Program-made: the position numbers and the translations under genes
Assembly: GCF_000244895.1 (NCBI RefSeq)
Contig: NZ_CM001441.1
Span: forward strand, 2,624,226 to 2,688,225
Direction: 5' to 3'
From: Desulfosporosinus youngiae DSM 17734
Lineage (GTDB): Bacteria; Bacillota; Desulfitobacteriia; Desulfitobacteriales; Desulfitobacteriaceae
DNA length: 64,000 nucleotides
The notes under the pieces: generated by a model
The model's database searches: none
Seen by the model: only the letters and a program-made list of their open reading frames with translations
Told to the model about the DNA's origin: nothing
Shown here: positions 33,784-59,595 of the stretch, piece after piece
How positions within the stretch are numbered: position 1 is the first letter of the stretch
Layout: each line of letters opens with the position of its first letter

Positions 33784-33801
33784 TATAGGTGAATGACTTA
33801 T

Positions 33802-33939
33802 TCTCAGGGCGGGGTGAGATTCCCCACCGGCGGTATCCTAGTTGTTTCTAGGGAGCCCGCGAGCGCTCTTCTTGCCGAAGAGGTCAGCAGAACTGGTGAA
33901 AGGCCAGTGCCGACGGTATAGTCCGGATGAAAGAGGATA
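33802..33939 (+). ncRNA. FMN riboswitch (RFN element)
   Basis: All conserved blocks are present in order: CTCAGGGCGGGGTGAGATTC, CCCACCGGCGGT, GAGCCCGCGAGCG, GTCAGCAGAACTGGTGAAA, GGCCAGTGCCGACGGT and GTCCGGATGAAAGAGGAT. It precedes ribB with a terminator between, so FMN should shut transcription off. Confidence 0.97.
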
Positions 33940-33961
33940 AGGGAGTCTGCATAATCTAATT

Positions 33962-37409: not shown

Positions 37410-37438
37410 CAGACATGCTAAGATTAAGCTAATATAAT
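37410..37438 (+). promoter_or_regulatory. Promoter of the cobalamin-riboswitch transcript
   Basis: CAGACA (37410-37415), 17 bp, perfect TATAAT (37433-37438); start at about 37445, the first base of the aptamer stem. Confidence 0.65.
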
Positions 37439-37442
37439 AACA

Positions 37443-37591
37443 TGTATAAGTTTCGCATGAATTAAAAGGGAATCCGGTGTAATTCCGGAGCGAGGCCGTC
37501 ACTGTGAAGGGGAGTTTTGCAGCAATCCACTGGAGTATTCCGGGAAGGGCTGTAAGGCGATGAACCAAGTCAGGAGACCTGCTTATACACA
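37443..37591 (+). ncRNA. Cobalamin riboswitch
   Basis: P1 stem TGTATAAG pairs with CTTATACA. Conserved blocks: AAAAGGGAATCCGGTGTAAT, GCCGTCACTGTGAAGGGGA, CCACTG...GGGAAGG, GGCGATGAACCAAG and the B12 box AGTCAGGAGACCTGC. It precedes the ABC import operon, so that operon should fall silent when cobalamin is plentiful. Confidence 0.95.
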
Positions 37592-37596
37592 TATTA

Positions 37597-37716
37597 ATGA
37601 ACGCCTACGGTATCTGGGCCGCTCATTTGGTGGATTTCTCATGGGCTAATGGTCTATCCTTTGCCTTTAGTGACATGGTTTCCCGGATTAGCAGCATAAA
37701 CTCAAAGCAGCCGTAA
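37597..37716 (+). CDS. Short ORF inside the riboswitch leader
   Basis: 39 codons from ATG 37597 (MNAYGIWAAHLVDFSWANGL) to TAA 37714, which lies in the loop of the terminator. No clear ribosome site before it. It may be a leader peptide, a cut-down gene once controlled by the riboswitch, or chance. Confidence 0.35.
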   Translation: MNAYGIWAAHLVDFSWANGLSFAFSDMVSRISSINSKQP

Positions 37717-45506: not shown

Positions 45507-45785
45507 AATTAAATACATTAAGCTATGAAGAAGAAGAGTACCTGTTTTTAGATGCCCAGAGAGAAGATGGCCGGTGAAAATCTTCGTGAAGAAAACAGGG
45601 AAGCCGTTTCTGAGCTGTTAGCCGAAAAGACATCTGTCCAGTAAGCTTTACCGGAGTTCCGGCCGTTATAGCGGAAGCGGCATTTTATGCCGTCAGAGAG
45701 CAGAGTAACCTCTGAATTTAGGTGGTAACACGGATTTGCCAATTCGCCCTAAGCTGATTAAATCAGCTTAGGGCTTTTGTATTTG
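45507..45785 (+). ncRNA. T-box leader, probably alanine-specific
   Basis: Stem I features: AGTA before CCTGTTTTT, AGAGAG and GGTG bulge motifs, then GAAAACAGG closing the stem and GAAGCCG, which would place codon GCC (Ala) in the specifier loop. The T-box itself is TTTAGGTGGTAACACGG (45717-45733), a variant of AGGGTGGNACCGCGG. The terminator is GCCCTAAGCTGATT/AATCAGCTTAGGGC plus TTTTGT (45746-45780). Uncharged tRNA should turn on the aminotransferase gene. The specifier was read by eye. Confidence 0.85.
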
Positions 45786-54410: not shown

Positions 54411-54894
54411 CATATCTCCCCCCCTATGAGTGTAAGTATCTTTCATTTCTACCGCCGGAGGAGTTTTGCTTCGGGTACTTGCGAGAAGTTAGGTAAAAGG
54501 CTTCTGATATGACATTTTTTGGAGAGGGTATATAGAAAGTGGGTTTTTGGTGATATACTATTATTTAGAAGCTCTTGTGAGAGAGGTAAAAATATATCAG
54601 CCAAGATGAGCCAAGTAAAAGAAGCTGCAATCAAAATAATCAATGACCTTAGTGCTTGCAATAATTCATGCAGCACGAGACTTGAATAACATGAAACCTC
54701 AACCTTGGGAAAATACATAATCTCCTGAGGTTTTCTGTTAGGCAAAGCCTAACGGCATATTTCCAGAATCTGAGCGGATATGATGTCAAGAGAATTAAGT
54801 TAAGATCTCCGGCGAGGCTTAAGGGAATTTCTTAAGGGCAGATATTATTGTTTGAAGAGGCAGAGGGTAAAGAATAAGAAAGTTGAGGATGCAT
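54411..54894. other. Gene-free stretch with a possible antitoxin relic
   Basis: A short plus frame at about 54606-54686, MSQVKEAAIKIINDLSACNN, resembles the start of DUF2281-type antitoxins but stops after 27 residues. The remainder is AT-rich; AGGCAAAGCCT near 54741-54751 is a small palindrome. No regulator site seen before the PstS-like gene. Confidence 0.35.
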
Positions 54895-55908
54895 ATGAAG
54901 AGACTCATTACTTTGATATTGATAAACATGCTGCTGCTGACGCTTTGCGCTTGTTCCCACAGGGGTGCCGCCAGGACTGAGGGGACGGCAGGGCCCCCGT
55001 CTTCTACACAACCTGCTTCCGAAGGCAGCACTGACGGCACAATGACGGCCGGTGCCCAGGCACTGGGTATTACTGCACTGAATTATCCAATAATTGACGG
55101 CTCAACTTCCACACTCTCTATCGTACAGTCTGTCTACCGGGCTATGTATGGCGAGGAGGCAGCCGATACAGACGGATATCCCACAAAGGCATCGAAAACA
55201 GTTCCCTCTTACCATCGTTTGATTGATGGGAAAGCGGATATGATCCTCGTACCCTATGCTTCTGCCGATGTACTGGAGGAGGCGGAGAATGCAGGTGTGG
55301 AACTGGAATTCCACAAGGTTGCCGCCGAAGCGCTGATCTTTATCACTTCCGCTGAAAACCCGGCGGAATCCATAACCTTGGAGCAAATCAGAGACATATA
55401 TCTGAACTATGGCATTACCAACTGGAGGGAGTTGGGAGGGCAGGCTAGAGAAGTTGTTCCTATTTGCCGCAATTCTGACAGCGGAAGTCAATCGCAAATG
55501 GACAATCTGATCCTCAACAATGAGAAAATGCATCCGGACATCCGGAATAATTATGTAGAACTTACGATGGAGGGAATGCTGGAGCAGGTAGCATTTTATC
55601 ATAACGGCGGTTTGTCAGGGAGCCCGACTAACAGCTATGCCCTGGGCTACACCCTGTATACTTACCTGCAGTGGATGAATAATGTAACCGGTATCGGCGA
55701 ATATCTGAAAGTTCTCTCAGTTAATGGCGTGCCGCCCACAGCAGAAACTATCGGAGACGGCGATTATCCCCTGGCCGACGGCTATTACGCAGTTATACGC
55801 TCAGACCTTCCCCGGGGTCACAGTGCCCGGGCGGTTATCACATGGCTTCAGGGAAAAGACGGTGCAAAGGCCATAGAAAATCTTGGCCTGATTCCCTGTG
55901 CTGAATGA
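54895..55908 (+). CDS. PstS-like substrate-binding lipoprotein
   Basis: 337 residues from ATG 54895 behind TTGAGG. Lipobox TLCAC (Cys20 in this numbering). The periplasmic-binding fold of the phosphate type shows as IIDGSTSTLSIVQSVYRAMY, LIDGKADMILVPYASADVLE, VAAEALIFITSAENPAESIT and ICRNSDSGSQSQMDNLIL. No PstCAB transporter genes follow, so it is an orphan receptor, perhaps for phosphate or another oxyanion or for signalling. Own terminator. Confidence 0.82.
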   Translation: MKRLITLILINMLLLTLCACSHRGAARTEGTAGPPSSTQPASEGSTDGTMTAGAQALGITALNYPIIDGSTSTLSIVQSVYRAMYGEEAADTDGYPTKASKTVPSYHRLIDGKADMILVPYASADVLEEAENAGVELEFHKVAAEALIFITSAENPAESITLEQIRDIYLNYGITNWRELGGQAREVVPICRNSDSGSQSQMDNLILNNEKMHPDIRNNYVELTMEGMLEQVAFYHNGGLSGSPTNSYALGYTLYTYLQWMNNVTGIGEYLKVLSVNGVPPTAETIGDGDYPLADGYYAVIRSDLPRGHSARAVITWLQGKDGAKAIENLGLIPCAE

Positions 55909-55938
55909 GGGTATAAGGCTTCCAATCATATTGAGAAT

Positions 55939-55984
55939 AAACAGCCAGCCGCGGAAACTTACTTCCGCGGCTGGCTGTTTGTTT
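55939..55984 (+). terminator. Terminator after the PstS-like gene
   Basis: Perfect 18 bp stem AAACAGCCAGCCGCGGAA and its complement (55963-55980), loop 6 nt, then GTTTAAAA. Confidence 0.85.
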
Positions 55985-56016
55985 AAAACGTCAAAAGCGG
56001 GCTAATCTGAAAAATT

Positions 56017-56475
56017 AAAAGACCCTAAAGACATCAGAAGAATACCCATACCCGTAAGCAGGGCAGCTTCGTCCACAGAAGCGAACCCATTGCATGGAGA
56101 GGCGGTAAAAGCCCACAAGCCGGTGCGGGGATACGGAGCCACGGGTTCACATCAGGTATTACCCGGAGGTTTGGCACGAAAGTGTCCGGTGGACACTTTC
56201 GCCGAAGCGGCAATCTCCAAAGAAAACTTATCCGCTGAAGGTAGCTCCCGCATCGGCGAGTGGGCGAGCCTCGGAATGCTGCGGTGAGCGGATGTGGACG
56301 AAGCTGCCCGACCCGGACACAGCTCCTTTCATCCTCTGTTGGTGCTGCGTTAGCGGCATGGGGATCTACCCTCGAAAAAAGACCCTATAAAGACATGCAG
56401 AAGAGAATCCCCGACCCGAGAGCACTCTCGTTTTCATCCTCTGCTGGTGCCGCATCAACAGCATGGGCGTCTGAA
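56017..56475 (+). ncRNA. Candidate structured RNA with long-range helix
   Basis: No credible gene. GGGCAGCTTCGTCCAC (56061-56076) pairs exactly with 56294-56309, a 16 bp helix closing about 217 nt. Inside lie ATCCGCT/AGCGGAT (56230-56236, 56287-56293), GAACCC/GGGTTC (56083-56088, 56143-56148) and an 11 bp hairpin CGAAAGTGTCC/GGACACTTTCG (56177-56201). Outside, a block AAAAGACCCTAAAGACAT (about 56017) recurs at 56377, and TTCATCCTCTG (56328) recurs at 56433 with matching flanks. Strand and ends are inferred; it could also be a repeat element. Confidence 0.5.
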
Positions 56476-56907
56476 TAAGCCAATGATCAATACACCATAA
56501 ACAGAGGCGCTTTCCAGGCGACTGATGATGATATAACTTAACTTTGATTTTCCAAACTCCGCAAGTTTGGAAACGTCATAGAAATTCTCCTTAGCTATAA
56601 TGAGCATGACTTTTATTATTTTTGGATACGGCACAAAAACTGTTCACTTAATAAGATGAGAAAGATCAAACTTCTCATCAGCTTTTTGAAATTTTCTTTT
56701 ATCGTACTGCTAAGCAAAAGAGGAATGGAGCGGAACGAACTAAATATTAAAATACAATAATTTTTAGGCTAATCTTACTTCATTTGATATAATTATCCAT
56801 AACCGATAAAATTTATGTTAAAACTATAGATTATATTTATTAAGGATTAAAAGTTAGGAGGTTTTACCGGAACTTGCCGAGAAAGAGAGAAAAGGATGGA
56901 GCAACTT
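56476..56907. other. Leader stretch before the sensor kinase gene
   Basis: Holds the hairpin TTTCCAAACT/AGTTTGGAAA (about 56549-56573) and AT-rich sequence to the kinase ribosome site. No ORF or clear promoter assigned. Confidence 0.4.
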
Positions 56908-59595
56908 ATGAAGCTTAAAAACGTACTTATTTTAGGAATTGGTAGTTTTCTTATTCTCTTGATCACAGTAGTCATTACTGGATTTTATCAAATGAGAGTC
57001 GTCAATAATGAAATGGTTTTAATAGTCAATGACCGTTATCAAAAGGTGAATCTAGCGAAGAATATTTCAATTGAGTTAGGGAATATTACCCGAAACCTTA
57101 GAGAAATCTTTTTACTTAATAATCAGATGGCCCCTACTCAATATATAGAAAGCATCCATAATTCCAACAGTCAGGTAATAGGTAATATTTCAACTTTAGT
57201 GGGGCTTTCCAAATCAGCAGAAATAGATAAAGTTGCTCAGCTGAGAGCAAGCTTTGAAGAGTACCTTAATTATGAAAAACAAGCTATTTATCTAATAGAG
57301 TCCAACAGAATTGAGGAAGCAAAAGAATTAATTCTTAATTCTTCAAACGATAAGTTAGAGAATCTAATCCGATCATTGAATGATGTAAATGAACTGGAAG
57401 AACAGTTGATGAATGCGTCTTTATCTAGTTCACAGAATGTTTTTTATAAAAGTAAAATTATATTTGCTTTGTACGTACTTATCGGTTTAATCCTTGGAAT
57501 CATTATTTCTCTATGGATGTTAAAGGCTTTTCTCGGAGATCTCGGTCAATTGACCAAAGCAATGAAAGGAATTACTTCTTATCCGGATAAAACCTCGTTA
57601 CCCCGTCTGAATGTGTCTAAGAATGAGTTGGGGGAGTTATCCGCCGTATTTAATGAAATGGCTGGTGCTTTAGAAATCCAAACCCGTCAACAGAGCGAAT
57701 CCACCCAAGCTTTAAAGGTTCGGAACTGGCTGCAATCAAAAGTCAGCGAGACTCATGCCTTATTTCAGGGGGTTCAAAAGGTTGAAGATTTCTGTAGTTT
57801 ATTAATCCATTGGGTTTGCCAAATTGTTGAATCAAACTATGGCAACTTTTACATCCGTTCCAACGAAACCGGTACTATTAAGTTAATGGCTTCGTATGCC
57901 GGAGATGGTCAAGAGATTGGCACAACGGAGTTTAAACTTGGTGAGGGTTTAATAGGTCAATGTTTTTTAGAAAATAGAATCATTAACCTAACAGAAGCTT
58001 CCGGCCAATACATTTCTATTACTACCGGACTGGGACAAATTATTTCAAAGCAGATTAAATTGCTTCCGGTTGAATTTGAAAATCAAGTAGTTGCGGTGAT
58101 TGAGTTAGCATCCCTTTCAGAGTTTTCTTCTAAAAAGAGAGAATTTTTAGAACAAGTTCGCTGGAATATCGGTATTATTCAGAACCGCATACAAGAGCAT
58201 GAGCATGTCCAAAAACTCTTAAAAGAATCTCAGATACTTACTGAGGAATTGCAAACTCAATCTGAATTGCTGCAAACTCAGCAAGAAGAATTGAAAACCT
58301 TTCACGAAAAGCTGGAGGAACAATATAAAGAATTGGAGCTTAAAAATATTGAACTGTCCCAGGCTAAAGCAAATTTAGAAGATCAGGCCCGTCAACTCGA
58401 ATCCAGTTCCCGGTATAAATCTGAATTCCTTTCAAATATGTCCCATGAATTAAGAACTCCCCTTAACAGTCTTTTAATATTGTCAAAGCTGTTATGGGAA
58501 AACAAGGATAGAAACCTTAATTCAAAACAGCTTGAATACGCGAAAACAATCTGGTCCTCCGGTAATGATTTGCTGCAGCTAATCAATGATATTTTAGATC
58601 TATCGAAGATTGAGGCCGGAAAGCTAGCAGTCAATAGGGATGAGGTTATCTTAACTGATCTCGTAAAAGAGCTTGAACGACAGTTTAGACCAATGTCTCT
58701 GGAAAAAGGACTGGATTTTAGGGCTGAAGTGAATAATATAACATATGAGTTGATCACAGACAGACGCCTCTTAAAGCAAATTTTAGCGAATCTGTTAAGT
58801 AATGCGATTAAATTTACTGAACAGGGTTATGTAAGAATGCACATTCAAGAACGAAAGCCAAAGGATAACATGATTGCTTTTCATGTTACTGATTCCGGAA
58901 TCGGTATTGCCGAAGATAATCAGGATTTGATTTTCGAAGCCTTTCAACAGGCTGATGGTACCACCAGCCGTAAATATGGCGGTACTGGCCTTGGTTTGTC
59001 TATTTGCAGAGAGTTGGCAGCTTTATTGGGAGGTTATATAGAACTTAAAAGTGTTGAGGGAAAGGGAAGTACCTTTACACTTTATTTACCTGGTGTAACT
59101 TCAGATAATTCCCTTGCAACAAGTGCACCATCGCTGGAGACTAAGCAAAATTTCGTTAATGCTGCTGCCAAAATAGTAAATGAAGAAGATGTTTTCTCAA
59201 AAACGGCTGTCCCAGGGGAGTTGATGGGGAGGGTTGTCCTTGTTGTTGATGACGATATGCGTAATATATTTGCCATATCAGCTGCTCTTGAGAAAGCTAA
59301 AGTCAAAGTATTGTATGCAGAGAATGGACGGGAGGCTTTGGAAAAACTTAAAGGGAACCGTGACATAGAACTGATCCTGATGGATATTATGATGCCTGAG
59401 ATGGATGGCTATGAGACGATGATACAGATAAGGGGATTGCCCGGGTATGCACAGATCCCCATAATAGCCCTAACTGCGAAGGCGATGAAAGATGACCGGG
59501 AGAAATGTCTGGAAGCCGGCGCTTCTGATTATTTAAGTAAACCCGTAGATATCGATAAATTAACGTCCTTAATTCGAGTATGGTTGTATAGGTAG
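56908..59595 (+). CDS. Hybrid sensor histidine kinase with GAF and receiver domains
   Basis: 895 residues from ATG 56908, 6 nt after GGAG (ATG 56896 is too near its site). Order: membrane span about 7-28, outside four-helix sensor about 30-180, span about 186-206, HAMP about 207-262, GAF about 290-430, coiled coil about 435-500, HisKA with phospho-His in SNMSHELRTPLNSLL (about 510), HATPase with N, G1 and G2 boxes (ANLLSNAIKFTE, DSGIGI, GGTGLGLSI), and a C-terminal receiver with D in LILMDIMMPEMDGYE (about 822). Followed by CheR and two response-regulator genes, forming one signalling unit. Confidence 0.92.
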   Translation: MKLKNVLILGIGSFLILLITVVITGFYQMRVVNNEMVLIVNDRYQKVNLAKNISIELGNITRNLREIFLLNNQMAPTQYIESIHNSNSQVIGNISTLVGLSKSAEIDKVAQLRASFEEYLNYEKQAIYLIESNRIEEAKELILNSSNDKLENLIRSLNDVNELEEQLMNASLSSSQNVFYKSKIIFALYVLIGLILGIIISLWMLKAFLGDLGQLTKAMKGITSYPDKTSLPRLNVSKNELGELSAVFNEMAGALEIQTRQQSESTQALKVRNWLQSKVSETHALFQGVQKVEDFCSLLIHWVCQIVESNYGNFYIRSNETGTIKLMASYAGDGQEIGTTEFKLGEGLIGQCFLENRIINLTEASGQYISITTGLGQIISKQIKLLPVEFENQVVAVIELASLSEFSSKKREFLEQVRWNIGIIQNRIQEHEHVQKLLKESQILTEELQTQSELLQTQQEELKTFHEKLEEQYKELELKNIELSQAKANLEDQARQLESSSRYKSEFLSNMSHELRTPLNSLLILSKLLWENKDRNLNSKQLEYAKTIWSSGNDLLQLINDILDLSKIEAGKLAVNRDEVILTDLVKELERQFRPMSLEKGLDFRAEVNNITYELITDRRLLKQILANLLSNAIKFTEQGYVRMHIQERKPKDNMIAFHVTDSGIGIAEDNQDLIFEAFQQADGTTSRKYGGTGLGLSICRELAALLGGYIELKSVEGKGSTFTLYLPGVTSDNSLATSAPSLETKQNFVNAAAKIVNEEDVFSKTAVPGELMGRVVLVVDDDMRNIFAISAALEKAKVKVLYAENGREALEKLKGNRDIELILMDIMMPEMDGYETMIQIRGLPGYAQIPIIALTAKAMKDDREKCLEAGASDYLSKPVDIDKLTSLIRVWLYR

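Follow-up and report, generated by a model that had tools for sequence, protein, structure and literature searches.

The window, a stretch of 64,000 nucleotides from the genome of Desulfosporosinus youngiae DSM 17734, contains an intergenic block at positions 56017-56475. Upstream of the block lie an ORF (54883-55908), which we take, from its translation, to encode a phosphate-binding-protein-like lipoprotein, and then a terminator-like hairpin with arms at 55936-55956 and 55963-55983. The ORF downstream (56896-59595) presumably encodes a sensor kinase, as judged by reading its translation. The only reading frames of at least 60 aa within the block were two short ones of 65 and 72 aa, in agreement with the original prediction that the block is free of genes. 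An Rfam scan over the block, also proposed there, found no family at its gathering score, and the weak sub-threshold matches fell only on the upstream terminator or on the block edges. Elsewhere in the window, an FMN riboswitch (33796-33942, +), a cobalamin riboswitch (37431-37600, +) and a T-box leader (45516-45754, +) were found above their gathering scores.

Comparison with other copies in the same genome delimited an array on the + strand, whose first element (56002-56372, with approximate boundaries) is composed of a left end, an R1 block, a core carrying a module M, and the right end Q1. The left end, CTAATCTGAAAAATTAAAAGACCC (consensus CTACYCTGAAAAA..AAGACCC), and the R1 block, which has ACCCG at its end, together occupy 56002-56054. 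A repeat search located the two 17-bp arms of the closing helix 1 at 56061-56077 (5' arm) and 56293-56309 (3' arm). The conserved rod-like core, module M included as an insert, extends from 56067 to 56303, as delimited by its match to a covariance model (model R1, E = 5e-40), and is supported by covariation. Within it, the apical conserved motif GGTTCACATCAGGTATTACCCGGAGGTTTGGC (56144-56175) corresponds to near-invariant columns of alignment A1 and to the consensus of alignment A3 (both described below), and the optional module M (56176-56243), delimited by aligning own-genome copies, consists of a hairpin, ACGAAAGTGTCC-GGT-GGACACTTTCG, and a second stem. The right end Q1 (56327-56372) contains a small hairpin followed by CTACYCT. 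It is followed by R2 (56374-56418), a second left end and R block that is coreless and has a single GACCCG, and by Q2 (56431-56474), the right end of this second unit.

The array thus reads R1-core-Q1-R2-Q2, the core being absent from the second unit, and the repeat search recovered the R-insert-Q-R-Q order of blocks that had been claimed. The Q copies (56327-56367 and 56432-56472) were 80% alike and the R copies (56017-56042 and 56377-56402) 73% alike, ungapped. The predicted long-range pairing is real and 100% complementary, but its length is 17 nt instead of 16 bp and its spacing 215 nt instead of 217. ACCCG lies to the left of the core and GACCCG to its right, against one GACCCG in the core-less unit; these motifs may have been duplicated during insertion or may belong to the element.

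The block proved to be one copy of a dispersed repeat, with at least 80 BLAST pieces in its own genome among the best 40 of 129 candidates scored. Combining the BLAST collection with the covariance model, we arrived at no fewer than 83 distinct cores for this genome of 5.66 Mb: 58 of family A, to which the window's core belongs, 13 of a second family, B, and 12 known only by place. Copy numbers per genome are lower bounds throughout, the best 40, 34 or 7 candidates having been scored, depending on the search. A structured RNA confined to a single locus was rejected in view of these many copies. The original prediction had named many genome copies with transposon-like ends as an observation that would count against it, and this was partly what we found: the cores are numerous and their ends recur, which points to a composite mobile repeat rather than a single RNA gene.

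Cores were intergenic and often arranged in head-to-tail arrays. Families A and B share their ends, namely CTACYCTGAAAAA on the left (followed by AAGACCC in A) and Q on the right, where Q is TTTTCATCCTCTG, then the small hairpin, then CTACYCT. The left end of the next element often directly follows Q, which gives rise to arrays such as Q-B-Q-R-A-Q, and A or B cores were present at the 15 Q/R sites that were read. Family B has a different 17-bp closing helix (for example at L012, 1244-1419 (-), and L008, 1893-2120). B cores lay on the strand opposite to the neighbouring A core in 13 out of 13 cases; since B cores were met only at loci chosen around A or Q, their nearness to A results from this selection, and only the strand opposition is informative.

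Among 41 aligned copies from the same genome, module M was absent in 15, and a hairpin cassette (..ACACTGTCTTCGCACG..), sometimes doubled, was found beside the right core arm in 20 (L006, L008-L018 and others). In two of the 41 (L029 and L067), a relative of M was nested in the apical loop of M itself. M was also observed without a core (L049, 1501-1572) in genome G030, which had no core match by the covariance model. Module M is therefore probably a separate small mobile hairpin. From a reading of the copies, the inserts sit in loops, and the long-range pairing stays possible.

Folded as RNA, the given strand of the block had a z-score of -6.1 and the opposite strand one of -4.5, with none of 100 dinucleotide shuffles as good in either case. 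With DNA parameters, the core alone reached -7.5 (0 out of 200 shuffles as good). The 17-bp helix closes a rod of about 175 nt with a near-invariant apical motif, to which the window copy adds a 68-nt module. Other subfamilies exhibited the same rod with quite different stem sequences. Closing helices were sought with an automatic helix finder at 43 apical-motif centres in other genomes, and many differed in sequence; at several of these centres (for example L042, L080 and L092), the finder gave no convincing closing helix. Examples of the differing helices are CGTAGCTTTACGTA/TGCGTAAAGCTACG in L044, GAGGGTGTGACTTT/AAAGTCACGCCCTC in L052, AATATTTGTGTA/TGCACAAATATT in L055 and, for family B, GGAGCGCTTGTCTGC/GCAGACAAGCGCTCC in L041.

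Covariation was assessed in three alignments. The first, A1, comprised 19 short forms that were picked by hand and whose closing helix was clear (174-187 nt; 15 from the 43 centres and 4 own copies). Aligned without structure fitting, it had a two-sided change in at least one sequence at 25 of the 38 consensus pairs. In A2 (47 covariance-model matches at 40 loci, 44 distinct rows), two-sided changes were present in 34 of the 38 pairs, 92.5% of the cells paired, and the covariation score was 0.570, versus 0.200 ± 0.009 after shuffling and 0.06-0.09 with slid partners. In A3 (106 model matches at 80 named loci, 105 of them distinct), they were present in 32 of the 38 pairs (936 cells), with a score of 0.561 versus 0.208 ± 0.006 after shuffling; two other outcomes were weaker, with 87.0% of the cells pairing and 3 out of 500 shuffles reaching its count of pairs with two-sided change. 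Because A2 and A3 were built by fitting to the model and consist of related rows, the shuffles of both are not probabilities. Short loop motifs stayed fixed across the alignments. Internal loops of the GUGAAC type recurred and, by reading, could form tandem G.A pairs.

The two-sided changes in the helices support selection for a folded strand. Compensatory change was also observed in the long helix, as had been proposed as support for an RNA, with different but complementary closing helices in other subfamilies. The block had first been suggested to be either a structured RNA or a composite element of palindromic type, and these suggestions prove to be two aspects of the same object: the selected fold is upheld by covariation, but the block is not a single RNA gene, since it contains the core of a composite mobile repeat, and this core is under strong selection to fold. 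An ordinary MITE would be an insertion sequence that has lost internal parts by deletion, in which the terminal inverted repeats are what counts and any fold of the interior is a by-product. This would match the short, gene-free, intergenic and many-copied form of the repeat, as well as its imperfect inverted ends R and Q. However, compensatory change occurs throughout the interior, loops are conserved where stems are not, and the core is also found with other or no recognisable ends, as in L052, L057 and L058, whose cores are without R/Q ends. We consider this reading very improbable.

On the strand shown, G-U cells numbered 71 and A-C cells 19 (52 versus 19 without one G-U-dominated pair). 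In the larger tally, made on A3, the corresponding numbers were 160 and 67 including one G-U-dominated pair, or 132 and 67 without it; 20 columns had more G-U and 9 more A-C. The wobble excess was weaker in own-genome copies alone (110 G-T versus 74 A-C). Since G-U exceeds A-C on the strand shown, the fold appears to be strand-specific, which suggests that this strand is the one that folds, as RNA or equally well as ssDNA.

To describe the distribution of the repeat, relatives were searched by DNA similarity, which matched 36 out of 60, and by the covariance model, which identified the core in 59 of the 82 class genomes, a count that includes the own genome (best 34 candidates scored per genome). 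In a draw from the phylum, 14 out of 398 genomes had the core, 3 of them outside the class, in a search that scored the best 7 candidates per genome and was weak for diverged copies. In the order to which one of these 3 belongs, 3 out of 19 genomes matched, all in 1 of 11 genera, with 13, 21 and 6 copies. In a distant genome, G155 (L175-L177), the cores were extended on the 5' side by a long conserved stretch that includes an additional hairpin and does not resemble R/Q.

When named genomes were scanned with a pattern, 118 stretches were returned, of which 80 were examined; the sources were Desulfosporosinus species, Heliobacterium mobile and H. chlorum, Paradesulfitobacterium, Gracilibacter, and Peptococcaceae and Bacillota MAGs. 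Pattern hits in Paenibacillus (L250) and Ferruginibacter (L252) were not cores and were counted as chance. Viral contigs had no match to one exact pattern, and plasmids and phages had no match by blastn; a phage or plasmid location was rejected on these results. No description of the repeat was found in the openly licensed PubMed Central literature or in Rfam.

Orthologous sites were compared with those of a relative, G003, in which the flanks of seven own loci were sought and both flanks were aligned at two. At L003, the orthologous flanks were 90 bp apart in G003 versus 424 in the own genome, and at L023 they were 307 apart versus 1025; G003 had no core at either site. Overall, six of the seven G003 segments were coreless (with only one flank found for four of the six), and the segment corresponding to L102 had a core in the opposite orientation. 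By reading, the element at L003 (about 1463-1840) seems to be inserted in the terminator hairpin behind a gene that we take to be gatB-like. Flanks compared by eye showed no constant target-site duplication, and the intergenic sequence of G003 was too diverged for such a comparison.

Among own loci L001-L030, no long gene was interrupted at any of the 30, apart from short frames running through the repeats and L016, where one start is likely over-extended. The neighbouring genes, tallied by hand for ORFs of at least 100 aa, were co-directional at 23-24 loci, convergent at 6-7 and divergent at none of the 30. Relative to co-directional neighbours, cores had the same orientation at 13-14 loci and the opposite one at 10, with no clear preference. 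No replication-strand bias was found either (40 versus 30 cores, with the origin assumed at the contig start), and a bias of the type expected for lagging-strand ssDNA transposition was rejected on these numbers. The gene-free insertion pattern, together with the absence of copies at orthologous sites, is the behaviour of a non-autonomous mobile element.

These observations also bear on the possibility that the core is a structured RNA useful to the host (a 3'-UTR, attenuation or processing element, or an sRNA), amplified and kept by host selection. Conservation of the fold and loops over a class would be expected of such an RNA, and both the G-U excess on one strand and the lack of divergent neighbours are consistent with it. 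The nearly even orientation of cores relative to co-directional genes, the copies missing at orthologous sites and the patchy occurrence outside the class argue against it, and we find it unlikely.

A mobile element of this type would depend on an enzyme supplied in trans, and candidate partners were looked for beside the cores and in the genomes carrying them. In a neighbour-gene survey, which excluded L031, L071, L072, L093-L095, L122, L134 and loci added later, the genes for a common ABC-transporter ATPase, at 10 loci, were the only protein genes to recur, all others being present at 5 loci at most. The two largest clusters of neighbour proteins were reading frames of the repeats themselves. 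A conserved neighbour gene travelling with the core was rejected on this survey.

Matches to Y1 transposases were found in 52 of the 82 class genomes. In the own genome, L094 (1327-1863, -) encodes a RAYT-like Y1 protein of 178 aa. Such a protein would be required if Q and R formed an inverted REP pair moved by a RAYT (Y1) transposase, with the core as passenger. By reading, a GTAG-type foot and a hairpin are seen in Q on its other strand, and R is a degenerate inverted copy of it; with the RAYT-like protein encoded in the same genome, this speaks for a REPIN-like carrier. Yet only chance-level BLAST matches to Q/R were found beside the RAYT-like gene, none of the 31 Y1 loci examined had a core, and Y1 was not matched in G003, G034, G027 and G073-G077, each with at least 13 cores. 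Cores without R/Q ends are also at odds with it. A general need for a RAYT, or for any other Y1 transposase, in mobilisation was rejected on these results, and the REPIN-like reading as a whole appears unlikely, slightly more so than selection by the host. Nevertheless, as Q resembles a REP and a RAYT-like protein is present, the Q/R carrier itself could still be REPIN-like.

Reverse transcriptases were matched more widely, in 67 of the 82 class genomes, with three matches in the own genome. Together with the strand-specific fold, this would fit an RNA of the SINE type that is mobilised in trans by a reverse transcriptase, for example that of group II introns. However, no reverse transcriptase was matched in G074, G075, G077, G059 and G067, which have at least 7-29 cores, and cores were present at none of the 20 reverse transcriptase loci examined. 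Neither poly-A nor a pattern of variable 5' truncation caught the eye in the copies. A reverse transcriptase as a generally required partner was rejected on both grounds, and the SINE-like explanation is, in our opinion, distinctly unlikely.

Stand-alone copies of an OMEGA-type guide RNA (IscB/IsrB omega RNA, HEARO) were considered by analogy, since these too are large structured RNA-like units in a mobile context. The IscB N-terminal family PF14239 gave no signal in control genomes in a first search; in a later one it was matched in 7 of the 82 class genomes and was absent from the own genome. None of the 14 IscB loci had a core and there was no Rfam HEARO match. An IscB/IsrB omega RNA was rejected on the rarity of the family and on these loci, and an OMEGA-type origin is hardly credible.

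Three genomes with at least 13-29 cores (G074, G075 and G077) matched none of IscB, Y1/RAYT and reverse transcriptase; as loss after expansion, or assembly gaps, could hide a partner, this is evidence that none of them is generally required today, but it does not speak against a role in the past.

Overall, we favour, as fairly probable, the view that the block belongs, as one copy, to a superfamily of mobile elements that are small and non-autonomous and in which the folded single strand is the conserved and recognised feature. The conserved unit is a rod-like folded strand of about 170-180 nt, comprising helix 1, internal loops able to form tandem G.A pairs, further helices and the near-invariant apical motif. 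In the own genome, this core is usually part of a carrier that has R as its left end and Q as its right end, and carriers often join head to tail at a CTACYCTGAAAA junction, producing arrays such as R-core-Q-R-Q. An enzyme supplied in trans would read the folded single strand by its shape and apical motif, not by stem sequence, and would move it through an ssDNA or RNA form. Recognition of the folded strand by a trans-acting enzyme is the most likely arrangement, and the stems that have changed in sequence while keeping the hairpin shape in distant relatives point to a type of mobile element that has so far been overlooked and is itself recognised by shape. More tentatively, the rod of about 175 nt, with its tandem G.A loops and fixed apical motif, could be the transposition signal itself, read as folded RNA or ssDNA by an undiscovered bacterial enzyme, so that stems would be free to change and hairpin modules could nest in loops without breaking the fold; we regard this as possible, with the odds somewhat against it.

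Mini-repeats of bacteria are usually classified by their sequence and regarded as remnants of insertion sequences that are already known. In the present case it is a fold, not a sequence, that is conserved across a class and met again in a single genus of a different order, with tens of copies in each genome, while three genomes rich in cores lack matches to all three of the partner enzymes tested. The cores call for one of two explanations, a mobilising activity that is new or a large structured RNA with a use yet to be recognised. Both can now be tested, since there are an alignment, a covariance model and numerous copies to work with. Such an element would also explain some of the so far unannotated intergenic DNA in Desulfosporosinus, Heliobacterium and their relatives.

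Among known systems, the HEARO/IscB omega RNA is a structured RNA tied to a mobile element, whereas the cores have neither an Rfam match nor an adjoining IscB. Integron attC sites are recombination sites of folded ssDNA, with R'/R'' boxes and a nearby integron integrase; the fixed apical motif of the core would argue against this identity. Mitochondrial double-hairpin elements and cyanobacterial small dispersed repeats are small palindromic repeats that nest in one another, but the core described here is much larger, its fold is conserved across genera, and it resides in a bacterial chromosome of another phylum.

BIMEs have a mosaic structure. REPINs are described, in passages of one source, as inverted REP doublets moved by RAYT (PMC3116915). 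As judged from the same passages, the block family resembles REPINs and REPs in being small, intergenic, high-copy and palindromic (PMC3116915). Mosaic and tandem arrays are a further likeness, shared with BIMEs, and Q of the block family resembles a REP. For the doublet feature, Q is REP-like, but R matches an inverted Q in degenerate form only. The block family further differs in its covarying core of about 175 nt with fixed loops, and in the several core-rich genomes where Y1/RAYT was not matched. Prokaryotic MITEs, as characterized in parts of PMC10969869, are non-autonomous, gene-free and intergenic, with inverted ends and stable folds. The block family is likewise short, non-coding and present in many copies, with terminal inverted repeats (R/Q, imperfect); in contrast to MITEs, it is the interior fold that is conserved despite changed stems, and not the ends alone, and no parent insertion sequence of the block family turned up at the 15 Q/R sites that were read. 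Finally, ERIC, YPAL and other stem-loop repeat families are presented, in passages of PMC2267715, as dispersed and intergenic, with a common predicted structure and in one or few species. Those passages cover genomes other than the Desulfitobacteriia type, and the block family is, like the repeats they describe, dispersed, intergenic and united by a shared structure.
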